Source: Motilibacter aurantiacus
GTDB taxonomy: Bacteria > Actinomycetota > Actinomycetes > Motilibacterales > Motilibacteraceae
Length of the DNA stretch: 64,000 nt
Assembly: GCF_011250645.1 (NCBI RefSeq)
Contig: NZ_JAANNO010000009.1
Coordinates: 1 to 64,000 of the forward strand
Direction of reading: 5' to 3'
Every line of letters begins with the position of its first letter. The stretch's first letter is position 1. Shown piece by piece: positions 1,266-17,463 of this stretch. Made by a program: the position numbers and the translations under genes. The notes beneath the pieces are model-generated. The model had not been told where the DNA came from, searched no databases, and saw only the letters and a program-made list of their open reading frames with translations.

Positions 1266-3578
1266 CTGACGCACGGCAGCGACGACGGCCGCGGGAGGCT
1301 GCCGGTCCAGGTCGGCCGGGAGCTGCTGCCGCCGGGCACCCCGATCGACCTGAGCAACTGCGAGCGGGAGCCCATCCACATCCCCGGCAGCGTGCAGCCC
1401 CGTGGCGCGCTGCTCGTGCTCACCGAGCCCGAGCTCGAGGTCGTCCAGGCCTCCGCCAGCGCGGCCGCGCTCCTGGGCCGTGAGCTGGACGAGCTGCTCG
1501 GCGCGCCGCTGGCCGTCGCGCTCGGGCCGGACGCGGCCGGTGAGGTCACCCGGTTCGCCAGCACGTTCGGCGACGTCCGCGACCGCAACCCGCTGGAGCT
1601 CACGCTGCGGCGGGACGGCCGGCCCCTGGGGGTGGACGCGATCCTGCACCGGGTCCCGCTCGACCCGACGGGAGCGCGCACCGGCTCGCTGCTCGTGGTC
1701 GAGCTCGAGCCGGCGTACGGCCCGCGCCCCTTCTCGTTCCCCAACACCTACCAGGCCGTCCGGGGCGCCGTCGCCGAGCTCAACCGGGCCGGCACGTTGC
1801 AGGAGCTCTACGACGTCACCGCACGGGAGGTGAAGGCGCTCACCGGCTTCGACCGGGTGATGATCTACCGCTACGACGCCGACTACAACGGCGAGGTCGT
1901 CGCGGAGGAGCGCGAGGAGCACCTCGAGCCGTTCCTCGGCCTGCACTACCCCGCCTCGGACGTCCCCCGGCAGGCCCGCGAGCTCTACGAGAAGAACTGG
2001 ATCCGGCTGATCGACGACGTGGGCTACGTCCCGTCGCCCGTGGTGCCGACGGACAACCCGCTGACCGGGTGGCCGCTCGACCTGACCTATGCGAGCCTGC
2101 GCAGCGTCTCGCCGATCCACGTCGAGTACCTGCGCAACATGGGGGTGCGCGCCTCCATGTCGATCTCCCTGCTGCGCAGCGACAGGCTGTGGGGGCTCAT
2201 CGCCTGCCACCACTACTCCGGACCGCACGCGCCGCCCTACGGCGTGCGCGCGGCGGCCGAGTTCCTCGGCTCGACACTCTCCCTGCGGCTGGTGGACCGC
2301 GCCCAGGACGAGGAGCTGCAGGCCGCGCTCGCGGCCCGCTCGACGATGGCCGCGCTCACCCGATCCACGCTGGACGAGGACGTCCCGCTGGCCCGCTCGC
2401 TGCTCGCCGGGCCGACGCTGCTGGACCTGGTGCCTGCCGCCGGCGTCGTCGTCGCGCTGGGCGGGGACGTGCAGAGCGCGGGACGGGTGCCGCCGCCCGA
2501 CGTCGTCGAGCGGGTCGTCCGCTGGGCGTGCGACATGGGCCGTGACGTCGTCTCCACCGAGGAGCTGTCCGCCGTGCCCGGCCTCGACGTGCCCGTCGAG
2601 ACCGCCTGCGGCGTGCTGGCCGTCCCGCTGCCCGACGGGCAGAGCGTGCTGTGGTTCCGGGACGAGACCGCGCGGTCGGTCGACTGGGGCGGCGACCCCC
2701 ACACCAAGCTCCGCGTGCACGTCGAGGACGACCGCATGCGGCTCAGCCCGCGCCGGTCCTTCGCCCGCTGGCGCGAGGTCGTGCACGGCCGGTCCGAGCC
2801 GTGGACGGCCGAGCAGCTGCAGCTCGCCGCCCAGCTGCGGGCCACCGTCGTCGAGGCGCTCTGGGCCCGCTCACGCCGGCAGCTGCGGGCGGCGGAGACG
2901 CTGCAGCGTGCCCTGCTTCCCGGAACCCTGCCCCGGCCGGTCGGCTGGTCCATCGGCGCCCGCTACTCCCCCTCGGCGGGAGGGCGGGTGGGCGGCGACT
3001 GGTACGACGCCTTCGTGCTGCGGGACGGACGCCTCGCGCTCGTCCTGGGCGACGTCGCCGGGCACGGCCTGGCCGCCGCGGGCACGATGGCGCAGCTGCG
3101 CAACTCGCTGCGGGCGGTCCTGCTCGAGACCGGCGACCCGGCGGCGGCCCTCGGCCGGCTCGACGCGCTCGTCGAGTGGCTGCTGCCCGACGCCCTCGCG
3201 ACGGCCGTCGTCGTCGTCGTGGACCCGGCCGACGGGCGTGGGTCGGCCGCCAGCTCCGGCCACCCCGCCCCGATCCTGCTCGCCCCCGACCGCGGCCCCG
3301 CGCCGCTCGAGCTGACGGCCGGGCCCCCGCTCGGGGTCGGCCTGGGGGCGCCCGAGGCAGCGGCGGTCGTCCTGCCCCCTGGCGCCTGCGTCTGCCTGTA
3401 CTCCGACGGGCTCGTGGAGCGGCGCACCGAGTCCCTCGACGTCGGCCTGGCCAGGCTGCAGCGCAACCTCGCCACAGCTGACATCGACGAGGTGTTCCTG
3501 CGTACCCGGGACCCCGAGTCCGAGGACGACGCGACCCTCCTGGTGCTGCAGCGCGACGAGCAGGCCCGCGCCGGCTGA
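1266..3578 (+). CDS. Bacteriophytochrome fused to SpoIIE/PP2C-type phosphatase
   Basis: A red/far-red light sensor whose output is a Ser/Thr phosphatase rather than a histidine kinase. Numbered from 1266, the order is: PAS with the biliverdin-cysteine motif LSNCEREPIHIPGSVQPRG near residue 32, GAF with PASDVP near 230 and SPIHVEYLRNMGV near 283, PHY with WGGDPH and the tongue motif PRRSF near 480-500, and a PP2C domain from about 545 (GGDWYDA, LGDVAGHG, YSDGLVE). The start is uncertain. The frame is open from 1200, but the first ATG/GTG/TTG is the GTG at 1392, which would remove the essential cysteine. CTG 1266 (or ACG 1269), just after GAGG and GGAG tracts, is proposed instead. Family knowledge suggests an RsbU-like role, dephosphorylating an anti-sigma antagonist; none is encoded nearby. 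Confidence 0.9.
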   Translation: MTHGSDDGRGRLPVQVGRELLPPGTPIDLSNCEREPIHIPGSVQPRGALLVLTEPELEVVQASASAAALLGRELDELLGAPLAVALGPDAAGEVTRFASTFGDVRDRNPLELTLRRDGRPLGVDAILHRVPLDPTGARTGSLLVVELEPAYGPRPFSFPNTYQAVRGAVAELNRAGTLQELYDVTAREVKALTGFDRVMIYRYDADYNGEVVAEEREEHLEPFLGLHYPASDVPRQARELYEKNWIRLIDDVGYVPSPVVPTDNPLTGWPLDLTYASLRSVSPIHVEYLRNMGVRASMSISLLRSDRLWGLIACHHYSGPHAPPYGVRAAAEFLGSTLSLRLVDRAQDEELQAALAARSTMAALTRSTLDEDVPLARSLLAGPTLLDLVPAAGVVVALGGDVQSAGRVPPPDVVERVVRWACDMGRDVVSTEELSAVPGLDVPVETACGVLAVPLPDGQSVLWFRDETARSVDWGGDPHTKLRVHVEDDRMRLSPRRSFARWREVVHGRSEPWTAEQLQLAAQLRATVVEALWARSRRQLRAAETLQRALLPGTLPRPVGWSIGARYSPSAGGRVGGDWYDAFVLRDGRLALVLGDVAGHGLAAAGTMAQLRNSLRAVLLETGDPAAALGRLDALVEWLLPDALATAVVVVVDPADGRGSAASSGHPAPILLAPDRGPAPLELTAGPPLGVGLGAPEAAAVVLPPGACVCLYSDGLVERRTESLDVGLARLQRNLATADIDEVFLRTRDPESEDDATLLVLQRDEQARAG

Positions 3579-3653
3579 CGTCGGGGCCGGCCCGGCGGAC
3601 GCCTGCTCCTCGCCATGGCTAAGCATCCGGGCGGCGGCGCCGATCAGGGGGTC

Positions 3654-5882
3654 ATGTCCGGCGTCGCCTCCGCTCCGGCCCTGCGGGGCGTGCGGGGCCA
3701 GCTGGCCGTGCTCGCGGCGCTCGCGGCACTGGCGCTCGCGGTGCCGCCGTTGCGCCCCCCGCTGCTCCTGCTCTCCAACTGGGCGGCGGTGGTGCTCGTA
3801 CTGGCCGGGCCGCGTCGCTCCCCGGGCGCCCCGCTGCGGGTCGTCGTGCCGTTGGCGCTCTTCGCCACCTGCGTGGCCGTCGGCAACACCGCCCTCACCG
3901 TCGCCGGCGAGGAGAACACCCTCTCCCGCCTGGCCACCGGGCTCGCCCAGCCGGCGGCGGCCCTGATCCTGCCGGCGCTGTTCCGCTCGAGCGCGGCCCC
4001 GCGACGCGGGCTGCTGCTCGACGGCCTGGTCCTCGGGGTGCCCGTGGCGCTGGTCGCCGCGGAGCTGGCGCTGCGCGGTGCCCAGGAGCACCGGACGAGC
4101 GGGCTGCACTGGGAGCTGGCAGTGGCCCCTGCCGCGGACGTGGTCCTGCTCGGGCTGCTCGCCTGGCTGGCGCTGACCCGGTCCCGGCTCGTGCCCGCGA
4201 TCGCCCTCGGGCTCGCCGGCGGCGTCGGGTGCACCGTGTACGACCTCATCGTGACCCTCGGGGGCCAGCGCGTCGCGCTCCCGGGCCAGGCGGTGCAGGC
4301 GCTCGGGGTCGTGGACATGCTGCTGTTCGGCCTCGCCGCGGTGCACCCGTCGGCGCAGGCCCTCGGAACACGCTCGGGGGCCGCCTCCCCGCGCCGCCCG
4401 CACGTCCAGGTGCTGCTGCTCCTGCCGCTCGCGGCCACCCCGGCCCTGCTGCTGGTGAGCCACGGGGTCGGCCTTCCCCTGCTCGTCCCGGAGTGGGCAC
4501 TGGGCGGGGCCGCGCTCGTCGCGGTCCTGGCGGTGGCGACCCGCGCGGTGCAGGCCCTGCGCGAGGTCGAGCGGCGCTCGACCCGCGACCCCCTCACCGG
4601 CTACCTCAACCGGGCGGGCGTGGTGGACGCGCTGGGCCGGGTCACCGCGCAGGGCAGGGGCGCCGAGCTGGTCCTGCTCAACCTGCGCCGGTTCAGCGAG
4701 CTGAACGAGGCGCTGGGCCACGAGGCCGGCGACGAGCTGCTGCGCACGGTCGCCGACCGGGTCGCCGGGCAGCTGTGCCCGGACGACCGGCTCGGGCGTA
4801 CCGACGGCGACGAGTTCGCGCTCGTGCTGCCCGACGCCCCGCCGGACGTTGTCGCGAAGCGGGCGGAGCGGCTCATCACGGCGTTCGCCGCCCCGTTCGA
4901 GGTGCAGGGCATGGCGCTGCACGTCACCGCACGGACGGGCCTCGTCGACGCAGCGCCGGGCGACGACCCGGAGGACCTGCTGCGCCGGGCCGGCGTGGCC
5001 GTGCACGCGGCCGAGCAGTCCGGCGGGCTGCCCGTCCGCCACGAGGACCGCCTGGACGACGCGGCGCGCCGCCGGTTCCAGCTGGCCGAGGACCTGCGCG
5101 ACGGGCTCGCCCGGTTCGAGCTCGAGCTGCACTACCAGCCGAAGGTGGACCTCTACACCGGCGGGCTGTTCGGCGTCGAGGCGCTGGTGCGCTGGCGGCA
5201 CCCGCAGCGCGGGCTGGTCCCGCCCGACGACTTCATCCCGCTCGCGGAGACCACCGGGCTGATCGTCCCGCTGACCGAGCAGGTGCTCGACGAGGCGGTC
5301 CGGCAGGCCCGGCTCTGGCTCGCGCAGGGACACCGCGTCCCCGTCGCGGTCAACGTGTCGCCGGCCTGCCTCCTGGCCGACGGGTTCGTCGACGGCGTGG
5401 GCGAGCGGCTCGCCCGCCACGGGCTGCCCGCAGGCCTGCTCCGGCTCGAGATCACCGAGACCGCGCTGCTGCGCGACGCCGAGCGCGCCATCGCCGAGCT
5501 GCACGCCCTCGCCGCGCTCGGCGTCAAGCTCTCCCTGGACGACTTCGGGACCGGCTACTCCTCCATGAGCTACCTGCGGAGGCTGCCCGCGGACGAGCTG
5601 AAGATCGACCGGTCGTTCGTCACCGGGCTCGCGGGCACCGGTGGGCGGGACGACATCCTCGTGGCGGCCATGGTCCAGCTCGGGCACAGCCTCGGCCTCT
5701 TCGTGGTGGCTGAGGGCGTCGAGGACGCCGAGACGGCGGACGCCCTCGCCGAGCTCGGCTGCGACGTCGGCCAGGGCTACTGGTGGTCGCGGCCGGTCCC
5801 GGCGTCCCAGCTCGCCGACTGGCTGACGAGGTCGCCGGCCGCCCAGGGCCTGAGCGAGCGCGCCCGGCCGTCCTCGGCCTAG
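3654..5882 (+). CDS. Multi-pass membrane protein with degenerate GGDEF and intact EAL domain
   Basis: A c-di-GMP signalling protein of 742 residues. Residues about 15-310 form eight or nine hydrophobic segments of no recognised sensor family. A GGDEF domain follows (about 325-485), but the signature reads TDGDEF and the metal-binding aspartate of the first strand is replaced (LLNLRRF), so cyclase activity is doubtful. The EAL domain (about 495-735) keeps all catalytic residues: EALVRW, NVSP, EITET, DDFGTGYSS, KIDRSF, AEGVE and QGY. The likely role is therefore a phosphodiesterase with a regulatory GGDEF. ATG 3654 follows an AGGGGG tract; ATG 3615 is an alternative without a ribosome site. The stop overlaps the convergent pseudogene end by 4 bases. 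Confidence 0.9.
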   Translation: MSGVASAPALRGVRGQLAVLAALAALALAVPPLRPPLLLLSNWAAVVLVLAGPRRSPGAPLRVVVPLALFATCVAVGNTALTVAGEENTLSRLATGLAQPAAALILPALFRSSAAPRRGLLLDGLVLGVPVALVAAELALRGAQEHRTSGLHWELAVAPAADVVLLGLLAWLALTRSRLVPAIALGLAGGVGCTVYDLIVTLGGQRVALPGQAVQALGVVDMLLFGLAAVHPSAQALGTRSGAASPRRPHVQVLLLLPLAATPALLLVSHGVGLPLLVPEWALGGAALVAVLAVATRAVQALREVERRSTRDPLTGYLNRAGVVDALGRVTAQGRGAELVLLNLRRFSELNEALGHEAGDELLRTVADRVAGQLCPDDRLGRTDGDEFALVLPDAPPDVVAKRAERLITAFAAPFEVQGMALHVTARTGLVDAAPGDDPEDLLRRAGVAVHAAEQSGGLPVRHEDRLDDAARRRFQLAEDLRDGLARFELELHYQPKVDLYTGGLFGVEALVRWRHPQRGLVPPDDFIPLAETTGLIVPLTEQVLDEAVRQARLWLAQGHRVPVAVNVSPACLLADGFVDGVGERLARHGLPAGLLRLEITETALLRDAERAIAELHALAALGVKLSLDDFGTGYSSMSYLRRLPADELKIDRSFVTGLAGTGGRDDILVAAMVQLGHSLGLFVVAEGVEDAETADALAELGCDVGQGYWWSRPVPASQLADWLTRSPAAQGLSERARPSSA

Positions 5883-12968: not shown

Positions 12969-14219
12969 ATGTCCACACTTGTCGACGCCGGGAACGGCGG
13001 CGAGGTCGACACCGTCGCCGAGGCGGGCCGTCTGCAGGCGCTCGACGCGTACGCGGTGTGCGGCACGGCACCGGAGCAGGCGTTCGACGACATCGCCTCC
13101 CTCGCCGCGGACCTCTGCGGCGCTCCGATCGCGCTGGTCAGCCTGGTGGGCCGGGAGCAGGTGTGGTTCAAGGCGCGGCACGGGCTCGAGGTCGCGTCCG
13201 CAGGCCGCGAGTCCGTCCTCTGCCCGCTGGCCCTTCGCGGCACCGATCTGGTGGAGCTGCCCGACCTGACGCTGGTGGAGGAGTACGCCCGCAGCCCGCT
13301 GGTGGTCGGCGAGCCGCACGCACGGTTCTACGCCGGCGCGCCGCTGCTCACGGCCGACGGCCACGTGATCGGGTCCCTGTGCGTCCTGGACTCCGTCCCG
13401 CGCCGGCTCACGGACGCGCAGCGGCGCGGCCTGCGCACGCTGGCCTCGCACGTCGTCGTGCAGCTGGAGCTGCGCCGGCGCGTCTGCCAGGAGGCCGTCG
13501 CGAACGACCGGCTCCGGCGCGCGGACCAGCTCAAGAGCGATTTCCTCGCCCGCATCACCCACGAGTTCCGCACCCCGCTGACCTGCATCACCGGCTACCT
13601 GGAGCTGCTGGTGGCCGGGGGCCTGGGCCCGGACGAGGTGGCCGAGTCCCTGCACGTCGTGCAGCGCAACTCCGCCCGGCTCACCGGGTTGGTCGACGAC
13701 GTGCTCGCGGCCTCCCAGCTCGGCGGCGCGGCGCCGGCGCCCGAGCGCACGGTCGAGGACCTGTTCGACCTCGCCGCGGAGGCCGTGGCGAAGCACGCGG
13801 GGACGGCTGCCCGCCGAGGGGTGGCCCTCGAGCTCGCTGCGCCTCTCGGGCCCTCCGAGCCCTCCATGGCGTACGTGCGGGGCGACCGGGTGGGGCTGGC
13901 CTGCGCGCTCTCCCGCGTCGTCTCCAATGCGGTGCTCTACACCCCGGCGGGAGGGTCGGCCACGGTCAGCGTCACCGTCGAGGCGGACCGCTGCGCGGTC
14001 TCCGTGACGGACACCGGCGTGGGCGTGCCCGCGGACGAGGTCGCCGAGGTGCTCAAGCCCTTCTGCCGCGGCCGCTACGCCGACGAGCGGCAGGTCCCGG
14101 GGGCGGGCCTGGGCCTGCCCCTCGCGGCGGCGACCGTGCAGGCCCACGACGGCAAGCTCACGTTCGACAGCGTGCACGGCGCCGGCACGACGGTGACGAT
14201 CGCACTGCCGCGCGCCTGA
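12969..14219 (+). CDS. Orphan GAF-domain sensor histidine kinase
   Basis: A 416-residue soluble histidine kinase with no membrane segment. A GAF domain occupies about residues 30-160 (ALVSLVGREQVWFKARHGL, ARFYAGAPLLTADGHVIGSL), followed by HisKA with the H-box FLARITHEFRTPLT near residue 200, then HATPase with the N-box VVSNAVLYTP and the G-box DTGVGVP and GAGLGLPLA. ATG 12969 follows GGGGGAAG. No response regulator gene lies beside it, so its partner is elsewhere. The GAF type (short redox/free-standing class) is also seen in the GAF proteins at 35774 and 36894; the signal sensed is unknown. Confidence 0.9.
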   Translation: MSTLVDAGNGGEVDTVAEAGRLQALDAYAVCGTAPEQAFDDIASLAADLCGAPIALVSLVGREQVWFKARHGLEVASAGRESVLCPLALRGTDLVELPDLTLVEEYARSPLVVGEPHARFYAGAPLLTADGHVIGSLCVLDSVPRRLTDAQRRGLRTLASHVVVQLELRRRVCQEAVANDRLRRADQLKSDFLARITHEFRTPLTCITGYLELLVAGGLGPDEVAESLHVVQRNSARLTGLVDDVLAASQLGGAAPAPERTVEDLFDLAAEAVAKHAGTAARRGVALELAAPLGPSEPSMAYVRGDRVGLACALSRVVSNAVLYTPAGGSATVSVTVEADRCAVSVTDTGVGVPADEVAEVLKPFCRGRYADERQVPGAGLGLPLAAATVQAHDGKLTFDSVHGAGTTVTIALPRA

Positions 14220-16083: not shown

Positions 16084-16290
16084 GAATAGGCGGATGCACG
16101 GCCTGGAGCCCCCGGCCGACCGCAGTGGCCGCCTGGGACGCGGACCCACCACCCCCACTGTGTAATCACGTGCGGGGAGCACCTCTGGAGAAGCGGGCCG
16201 GTGTCCGGGCCACTACCCTGGCGAGGACGTCGGCAACGCGCGCGCCGACCGCCCGCACGCCCTGCCCAGCCAGGGCGCGACGACGATGGG

Positions 16291-17463
16291 ATGAGCTGCG
16301 TGACGAGGTCGGACGCCTCCCAGCCCGCCACGTACGACCCGGTCACCACTCTCGCACGGCTCGAGCGGCTCTCCTGGTTCGGCGGCGTCGCCCGGCGACG
16401 GTCGGCCGCCTCCGTGCTCGTCGGCACCCTCGTCATCGCGATCGTCACGGTCGTGGTCGCGACGGGCCTGAACGCCGCGGGGATGTCGCTCGTCGCCCCG
16501 TTGTGGACCCAACTGCTGGGCTGGCCCCTCCTCTACGCCTCCCGGTCCGAGCCCGTGCAGCGGTTCCTCGGCGGCGGGCGCCTGGACAACCGCGAATGGC
16601 TGCGGGCCGTGACCGGCAACGCCCTGTTGCTGTTCGTCATCCTCCCGACCGGCCTGTCATTCCTGCTGCCGCTGGGTGCGGTGATGATCGCGAGCGTCCA
16701 CATCGGCTGGTCCGGCGCGCGGGCCTGGTGGGCCAACGCGCTGTCCGCCACCCTGACCACGGTCCTCGGCCAGGCCTGCGTGCACCTCGGCGTCGGCCCC
16801 GAGGGCGACTTCGTCGACAACGCGGACCTCGCCTCCGGGGTTGCGCTCATCCTGGGCCTCGCAGCCATCGCCAACATGGCTCTGGTCGCCGCCCGGCAGG
16901 AGGCCGACCAGTCCCTGATCGACGCGGAGCGCCAGGCCCGGCAGGAGGAGCTGCGCCACGCCGCCACGCACGACGCGCTGACCGGGGCGCTCAACCGGGC
17001 CGGCCTGTACGAGCGGCTCGGGACGGCCCTGCCCACCGCCGCGCCGGACCACGGGGTGGCGGCGCTCTACGTGGACCTCGACCGCTTCAAGCCGGTCAAC
17101 GACCGGCACGGGCACGCGACCGGGGACCGGCTGCTGGCCGTGGCGGCCCAGCGGCTGAAGCGGGTGCTGCGCCCGCAGGACGCCCTCGCCCGGGTCGGCG
17201 GCGACGAGTTCGTCGCGGTGCTCGTCGGTGTGGGGGCCAACGCGGACGTCAGGGCGGTCGCCGCGCGCGCGGCCGCCGCCCTGCACGAGCCGTTCAACCT
17301 CGACGGGACCGTCGTCGCCGTCTCCGCCAGCCTCGGCCATGCCCTCACCCACGACCCCGCCACCACCGCCGACGAGCTGCTGGGCGAGGCCGACCGGGAG
17401 ATGTATGCGGCGAAGGGCCGAGCCCCTGCGGCCCGGCCCCTCGCCGACGGGCCCCGTCGCTGA
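16291..17463 (+). CDS. Membrane diguanylate cyclase (GGDEF)
   Basis: A 390-residue protein that would make c-di-GMP from two GTP. Residues about 40-205 contain five or six membrane segments, then a short helical linker (RQARQEELRHAATHDALTG) leads into a GGDEF domain. The active-site motif is intact (RVGGDEF), the metal-binding strand is YVDLDRFKPVND, and an inhibitory RxxD site (RPQD) lies five residues before GGDEF, so product inhibition is expected. ATG 16291 is chosen because the membrane domain begins soon after; GTG 16300 is an alternative. It is divergent from the esterase gene. Confidence 0.88.
   Translation: MSCVTRSDASQPATYDPVTTLARLERLSWFGGVARRRSAASVLVGTLVIAIVTVVVATGLNAAGMSLVAPLWTQLLGWPLLYASRSEPVQRFLGGGRLDNREWLRAVTGNALLLFVILPTGLSFLLPLGAVMIASVHIGWSGARAWWANALSATLTTVLGQACVHLGVGPEGDFVDNADLASGVALILGLAAIANMALVAARQEADQSLIDAERQARQEELRHAATHDALTGALNRAGLYERLGTALPTAAPDHGVAALYVDLDRFKPVNDRHGHATGDRLLAVAAQRLKRVLRPQDALARVGGDEFVAVLVGVGANADVRAVAARAAAALHEPFNLDGTVVAVSASLGHALTHDPATTADELLGEADREMYAAKGRAPAARPLADGPRR

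Follow-up and report, generated by a model that had tools for sequence, protein, structure and literature searches.

Bacteriophytochromes are defined by a cysteine ahead of the PAS domain, which binds biliverdin, and by the motifs PASD[IV]P, SP.H and CH of the GAF pocket together with PRxSF in the tongue of the PHY domain. SpoIIE is among the effector classes listed for these receptors (PMC9587094). Conserved regulatory starts at non-canonical codons are already known from infC and from Streptomyces sigR, and a CTG start is known from AerR. infC begins with ATT in E. coli and with ATC in Streptomyces, and sigR begins with GTC (GTT in 2 of 34 species), a start that was tested by mutation and is repressed by IF3; the same report deals with the effects of IF3 on non-canonical starts (PMC5472188). 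In Rhodobacter capsulatus a CTG, accompanied by a ribosome-binding site, starts the short isoform of AerR (PMC6199135), and CUG initiation complexes have been described as well (PMC11497404). In a start-codon selection in M. smegmatis behind a consensus Shine-Dalgarno sequence, CTG made up 0.03% and was not enriched, against 9.8% for ATT (PMC4633059).

Here we describe a phytochrome gene in a 64,000-nucleotide stretch of Motilibacter aurantiacus DNA (the window, meaning the whole stretch analysed). The sequence suggests that it probably encodes a complete PAS-GAF-PHY-SpoIIE bacteriophytochrome whose translation is started ahead of the cysteine, at a codon outside the usual set, for which CTG 1266 is the best candidate. 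Like sigR, this would be an actinobacterial regulatory gene with a non-canonical start that is kept between species and lies outside the gene-finder repertoire; the sigR GTC, however, was tested by mutation, whereas the phytochrome CTG is proposed from sequence only, in two genomes. The pattern known from sigR, no usual start and a conserved unusual codon, was found in both of the two genus genomes compared. AerR resembles our case as a bacterial photoreceptor for which a CTG start is described, there behind a ribosome-binding site; that CTG, however, is internal and its product an additional, shortened isoform of a B12 receptor, while the phytochrome CTG would give the full-length, pigment-binding form. 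infC shares the conserved non-canonical start but, unlike the phytochrome gene, it is autoregulated and its product is the fidelity factor itself. Its expected start position is ATC in this family too: it reads ATC AGC AC(T/G) GAG behind a purine-rich leader in the window's genome (G000:C6, L294), in a second genome of the genus (G001:C256, L295) and in one of another genus of the family (G002:C2, L296), and in all three a GTG or ATG stands further upstream in frame.

Reading frame and domains

The chromophore motif LSNCEREPIHIPGSVQPRG is encoded at 1350-1406, and the cysteine codon TGC (1359-1361) lies inside it. We noted that between TGA 1197-1199, the last in-frame stop upstream (codons of this frame begin at positions divisible by 3), and GTG 1392 there is no in-frame ATG, GTG or TTG. 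GTG 1392 itself sits within LSNCEREPIHIPGSVQPRG, starting 33 bases past the cysteine codon TGC 1359. The first-pass annotation had already placed the motif at 1350-1406 and the first usual in-frame start after the cysteine, and its coordinates and codons were right. GAGGACGGTGGAG (1251-1263) directly precedes two candidate start codons, CTG 1266 and ACG 1269. The genome collection used contains five genomes of the order, among them one other of the window's genus, G001, which is called the congener below. The features of the locus, in window positions, are:

1197 to 1199, + strand: in-frame TGA stop, the upstream boundary of the frame
1202 to 1218, + strand: 17-base block CGCTTCGACTAGCCTCG, identical in the congener, with a putative promoter -10 element (TAGCCT)
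1251 to 1278, + strand: conserved initiation block, 27 of 28 bases the same in the congener
1256 to 1261, + strand: Shine-Dalgarno-like CGGTGG, 4 bases before CTG 1266 and 7 before ACG 1269
1258 to 1269, + strand: mini-ORF of three codons in another frame, GTG-GAG-CAC-TGA, whose stop overlaps the CTG/ACG
1266 to 1268, + strand: CTG, the proposed start codon
1269 to 1271, + strand: ACG, alternative start or second codon
1266 to 3578, + strand: predicted full-length bacteriophytochrome-SpoIIE protein, 770 amino acids
1359 to 1361, + strand: cysteine codon of the family's presumed biliverdin-attachment motif
1359 to 1715, + strand: PAS_2 domain (PF08446, Pfam)
1392 to 1394, + strand: GTG (Val43), first usual in-frame start codon, Shine-Dalgarno energy -1.7 kcal/mol
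1797 to 2264, + strand: GAF domain (PF01590, Pfam)
2406 to 2867, + strand: PHY domain (PF00360, Pfam)
3024 to 3554, + strand: SpoIIE/PP2C phosphatase domain (PF07228, Pfam)

Read from 1266, the protein matches PAS_2 at residues 32-150, GAF at 178-333, PHY at 381-534 and SpoIIE at 587-763 (E 1.6e-38), each well above its Pfam cut-off, and the earlier description of an otherwise complete phytochrome stands. Residues 26-531 align with the solved phytochrome 9jry and residues 26-537 with 6bap, the cysteine included. Cys32, in LSNCEREPIHIPG, aligns to LTNC of both structures, and we take it, by family, to be the residue to which biliverdin attaches. The pocket and tongue motifs were found as PASDVPRQAR, SPIHVEYL, ACHHYSG and LSPRRSF, aligned to the matching stretches of 9jry and 6bap (CHH and CHQ there). 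The defining cysteine is part of the protein, however, only if translation begins before 1359. From the domains, light regulation and phosphatase activity are predicted. A second PAS-GAF-PHY-SpoIIE phytochrome, 47% identical, is encoded elsewhere in the same genome (G000:C1:742660-744786, L002); this gene and its counterpart in the congener both have a GTG 15 codons before the cysteine.

Comparison with other genomes

Aligning orthologue starts had been suggested earlier as a check, and it pointed the same way: the congener's orthologue (83% protein identity) likewise has no usable ATG, GTG or TTG and keeps CTGACG. The start regions, GAGGACGGTGGAGCACTGACGCACGGCA in the window and GAGGACGGTGGCGCACTGACGCACGGCA in the congener, are identical at 27 of 28 bases around CTGACG. 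In the congener the frame is open for 531 codons upstream of the cysteine, as far as the compared stretch reaches. We considered this upstream frame as possible coding sequence and did not adopt that reading, because in frame no GTG occurs nearer than 374 codons before the cysteine and because the flank has diverged, the 30 bases before the conserved block matching those of the window at 10 positions unshifted and at 14 at the best of seven shifts.

Codons 12-42 differ between the two species by 5 synonymous changes and 1 nonsynonymous change (dN 0.015, dS 0.234). All 42 codons from CTG 1266 gave dN 0.074 and dS 0.184, and the 727 aligned codons from 1392 onward dN 0.112 and dS 0.555. Judged by these substitutions, protein-level selection acts on the stretch before GTG 1392. 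Codons 1-11 vary between the species, so by comparison alone the coding sequence is firm only from about residue 12. It is the conserved start block and this codon-level selection that carry the weight in taking the missing usual start beyond chance, and they back the rare CTG or ACG start that the first-pass annotation had invoked. The gene also occurs in G002, the third such genome of the family (66% identity). There VRVGQALLPPGTPVDLSNCEREPIHVPGSVQPRG aligns with the stretch beginning VQVGRELLPPGTPIDLSNC, VRVGQALLPPGTPVDLSNC aligns before the cysteine, where GTG codons are available, and the position of GTG 1392 reads GTC.

Further upstream, CGCTTCGACTAGCCTCG lies 49 bases before the start block in the window and 50 in the congener. 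It is possibly a promoter or operator, with TAGCCT as a candidate -10. The block could not be tied to a promoter element, as CTAGCCTCG is rarer than expected, with 3 occurrences against 16.7 in the 1.5 Mb examined.

Among named organisms, the protein's closest relatives belong to Actinobacteria. PAS-GAF-PHY-SpoIIE bacteriophytochromes of Geodermatophilus, Blastococcus, Cellulomonas, Mycobacterium and others have the same domain order and chromophore-attachment motif. We took the best 80 of 591 confirmed stretches, in 78 of which, all but L093 and L103, the cysteine motif was readable in a long frame. Unlike the window gene, all 78 have an ATG, GTG or TTG within 60 codons before the cysteine (the nearest is GTG in 45, ATG in 26 and TTG in 7), a count that is supporting evidence only, since by base composition such triplets are likely within 60 codons and since the 80 loci include cyanobacterial phytochromes that match in the sensory part only.

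In G002 and in G041, which belongs to another family of the class, the likely GTG start of the phytochrome gene overlaps the stop of the upstream gene as GTGA. That upstream gene (L010 893-1498, + strand, and L011 3831-4433, - strand, respectively) matches heme oxygenase over the Pfam cut-off. The match in G002 is weak (E 1.9e-6), and a search of the whole G002 genome with the heme oxygenase family gave no matches. The window's genus, in contrast, has no such overlap: each of its two genomes has one heme oxygenase match, away from the phytochrome (G000:C3:313854-314453 and G001:C232:651644-652243). It is plausible that the usual start was lost when the gene became separated from a heme oxygenase operon.

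In the window, the phytochrome is separated from its upstream neighbour by a sigma-70-family gene with regions 2 and 4 (482-1177). In the congener these flanks stand about 195 bases apart, against about 1020 in the window, so the gene is missing there. Directly downstream of the phytochrome is a gene for a GGDEF-EAL protein (3615-5882), and the stretch is rich in signalling genes, with a GAF histidine kinase and a GGDEF protein at 12969-14219 and 16201-17463.

Ribosome binding and the start codon

Against the 16S tail, CGGTGG gives the best match, at -6.2 kcal/mol. Its spacing of 4 bases to CTG occurs in 22, and that of 7 bases to ACG in 16, of 133 genes picked for a conserved ATG or GTG with a Shine-Dalgarno match. 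The match is modest evidence, because 10% of in-frame gene-body positions score as well as CGGTGG upstream of CTG 1266 and because CTG 1326, likewise before the cysteine, equals CTG 1266 in Shine-Dalgarno energy. A good match was also sought upstream of GTG 1392, and none was found (-1.7 kcal/mol). The start region folds less than its shuffles, with z +1.18 over 78 bases in the window and +1.97 over 129 bases in the congener. Since both CTG and ACG are conserved in the two genomes of the genus, they are inseparable by this comparison.

Another gene, however, bears on the choice. When the sequence aligned between the two genus genomes was surveyed roughly, a first pass flagged 75 of 348 ORFs for odd starts. 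After the 17 class-A flags of at least 250 codons were read by eye, the phytochrome gene and a zinc-ribbon gene remained; the other 15 were judged to be antisense frames, untranslated flanks or otherwise unconvincing. Under a stricter filter (273 ORFs, 61 flags) the zinc-ribbon gene dropped out, and reading 17 of its 61 flags gave one weak further case, at about G000:C3 437341-438747 on the minus strand, with GTT where the congener has GTG and no usual start upstream in frame.

The second gene encodes a CT398-like coiled-coil zinc-ribbon protein (PF24481, PF02591) and reads GAGGAGCTCGCC-CTG-AAGGCCGAC, with the CTG at about 121944 of G000:C3 on the minus strand (L264, L230). Of 60 genomes searched, 58 had a match, and we compared the best-scoring 30 loci (L264-L293), both genus genomes among them. 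At the start position, 18 of the 29 counted loci, all from the class, have CTG, 8 GTG, 2 ATG, 1 TTG and none ACG; L282 was left out for a misplaced frame, and L287 was counted as CTG with a less sure start alignment. Both genus genomes have CTG, and inspection by eye showed a GGAG-like leader in many of the loci. Of the 18 CTG loci, 6 have no ATG, GTG or TTG upstream in the open frame; the remaining 12 have a usual codon 9 to 50 codons upstream in frame, so a longer form is possible there. The zinc-ribbon gene may have a widely conserved CTG start. Such starts make CTG initiation plausible in the phytochrome gene, and it is this start-position comparison that leads us to favour CTG 1266 over ACG 1269.

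Alternative explanations

Translation from ACG 1269 (fMet-His-Gly), with CTG 1266 non-coding, we regard as unlikely. ACG is as conserved in the congener as CTG, its spacing is about as usual (16 against 22 of the 133 Shine-Dalgarno-selected genes), and the end of the mini-ORF, TGACG, may be likened to a TGATG stop-start overlap; the zinc-ribbon start position, however, is NTG in all 29 counted loci. The mini-ORF might instead be translated from GTG 1258 to its TGA, with re-initiation at the overlapping CTG/ACG, or a -1 slip, so that the start works by coupling. This is quite improbable: both species keep the GTG and the TGA, and a published study (PMC4648390) deals with re-initiation at non-canonical codons, but the mini-ORF's own Shine-Dalgarno match ends just 2 bases before its GTG, the two species differ in its second codon (GAG in the window, GCG in the congener's GTG-GCG-CAC-TGA) and no slippery heptamer was visible by eye. 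A start at another CTG before the cysteine (1299, 1323 or 1326) may also come into question, given the variability of codons 1-11 and the Shine-Dalgarno energy that CTG 1326 shares with CTG 1266.

Automatic annotation would be expected to choose GTG 1392, the first usual in-frame start, which is kept in the congener. The product would then be a cysteine-less, probably light-insensitive phosphatase. We consider this very improbable, since protein-level selection acts on the codons upstream, a good Shine-Dalgarno match is lacking, the aligned codon in G002 is GTC, and the codon lies inside the family motif IPGSVQPRG, at a residue that is Val or Ile in the relatives compared. A sequencing or assembly error that removed a normal ATG or GTG, the small error that had been offered earlier as the other way out, is scarcely credible. 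The genome is a draft of 62 contigs and the window is the start of contig C9, but CTGACG stands in the congener's assembly too, in a block that agrees at 27 of 28 bases, which effectively excludes such an error short of its having occurred in two assemblies.

Discussion

We thus prefer initiation at CTG 1266. Against it stands the M. smegmatis selection, in which CTG was not enriched (PMC4633059); that screen selected for zeocin resistance, for which a weak start may not have sufficed. In the mechanism that we propose, ribosomes would bind the GAGGACGGTGG leader, and CTG 1266, read by fMet-tRNA, would give a 770-residue protein beginning fMet-Thr-His-Gly. Because of what is known of sigR and infC, we infer that this initiation would be weak and IF3-sensitive, which would keep the receptor at a low level. 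The product would bind biliverdin from a heme oxygenase encoded elsewhere in the genome, and its SpoIIE phosphatase would be switched in a light-dependent manner, likely dephosphorylating an anti-sigma antagonist. More tentatively, and with considerable doubt, the phytochrome of this genus could be under initiation-fidelity control, its level being set by IF3 or growth state through the CTG start, which is conserved along with leader and mini-ORF. It would then belong to a small, overlooked actinobacterial set of fixed CTG starts, the zinc-ribbon gene being the widespread example.

Among the literature matches listed, which mostly leave subscription journals outside, no CTG start was reported for a phytochrome or a CT398-like gene, and no phytochrome-SpoIIE protein with a misplaced start was found among them. 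Going by these matches, no phytochrome before the one described here may have been argued to need a non-canonical start. From gene finders limited to ATG, GTG and TTG, one would expect an entry for this receptor that lacks the pigment-binding cysteine, and it may therefore be misread as a degenerate, light-blind phytochrome. Together, the phytochrome and zinc-ribbon genes suggest that CTG is usable, and sometimes conserved, as a start codon in actinobacteria.
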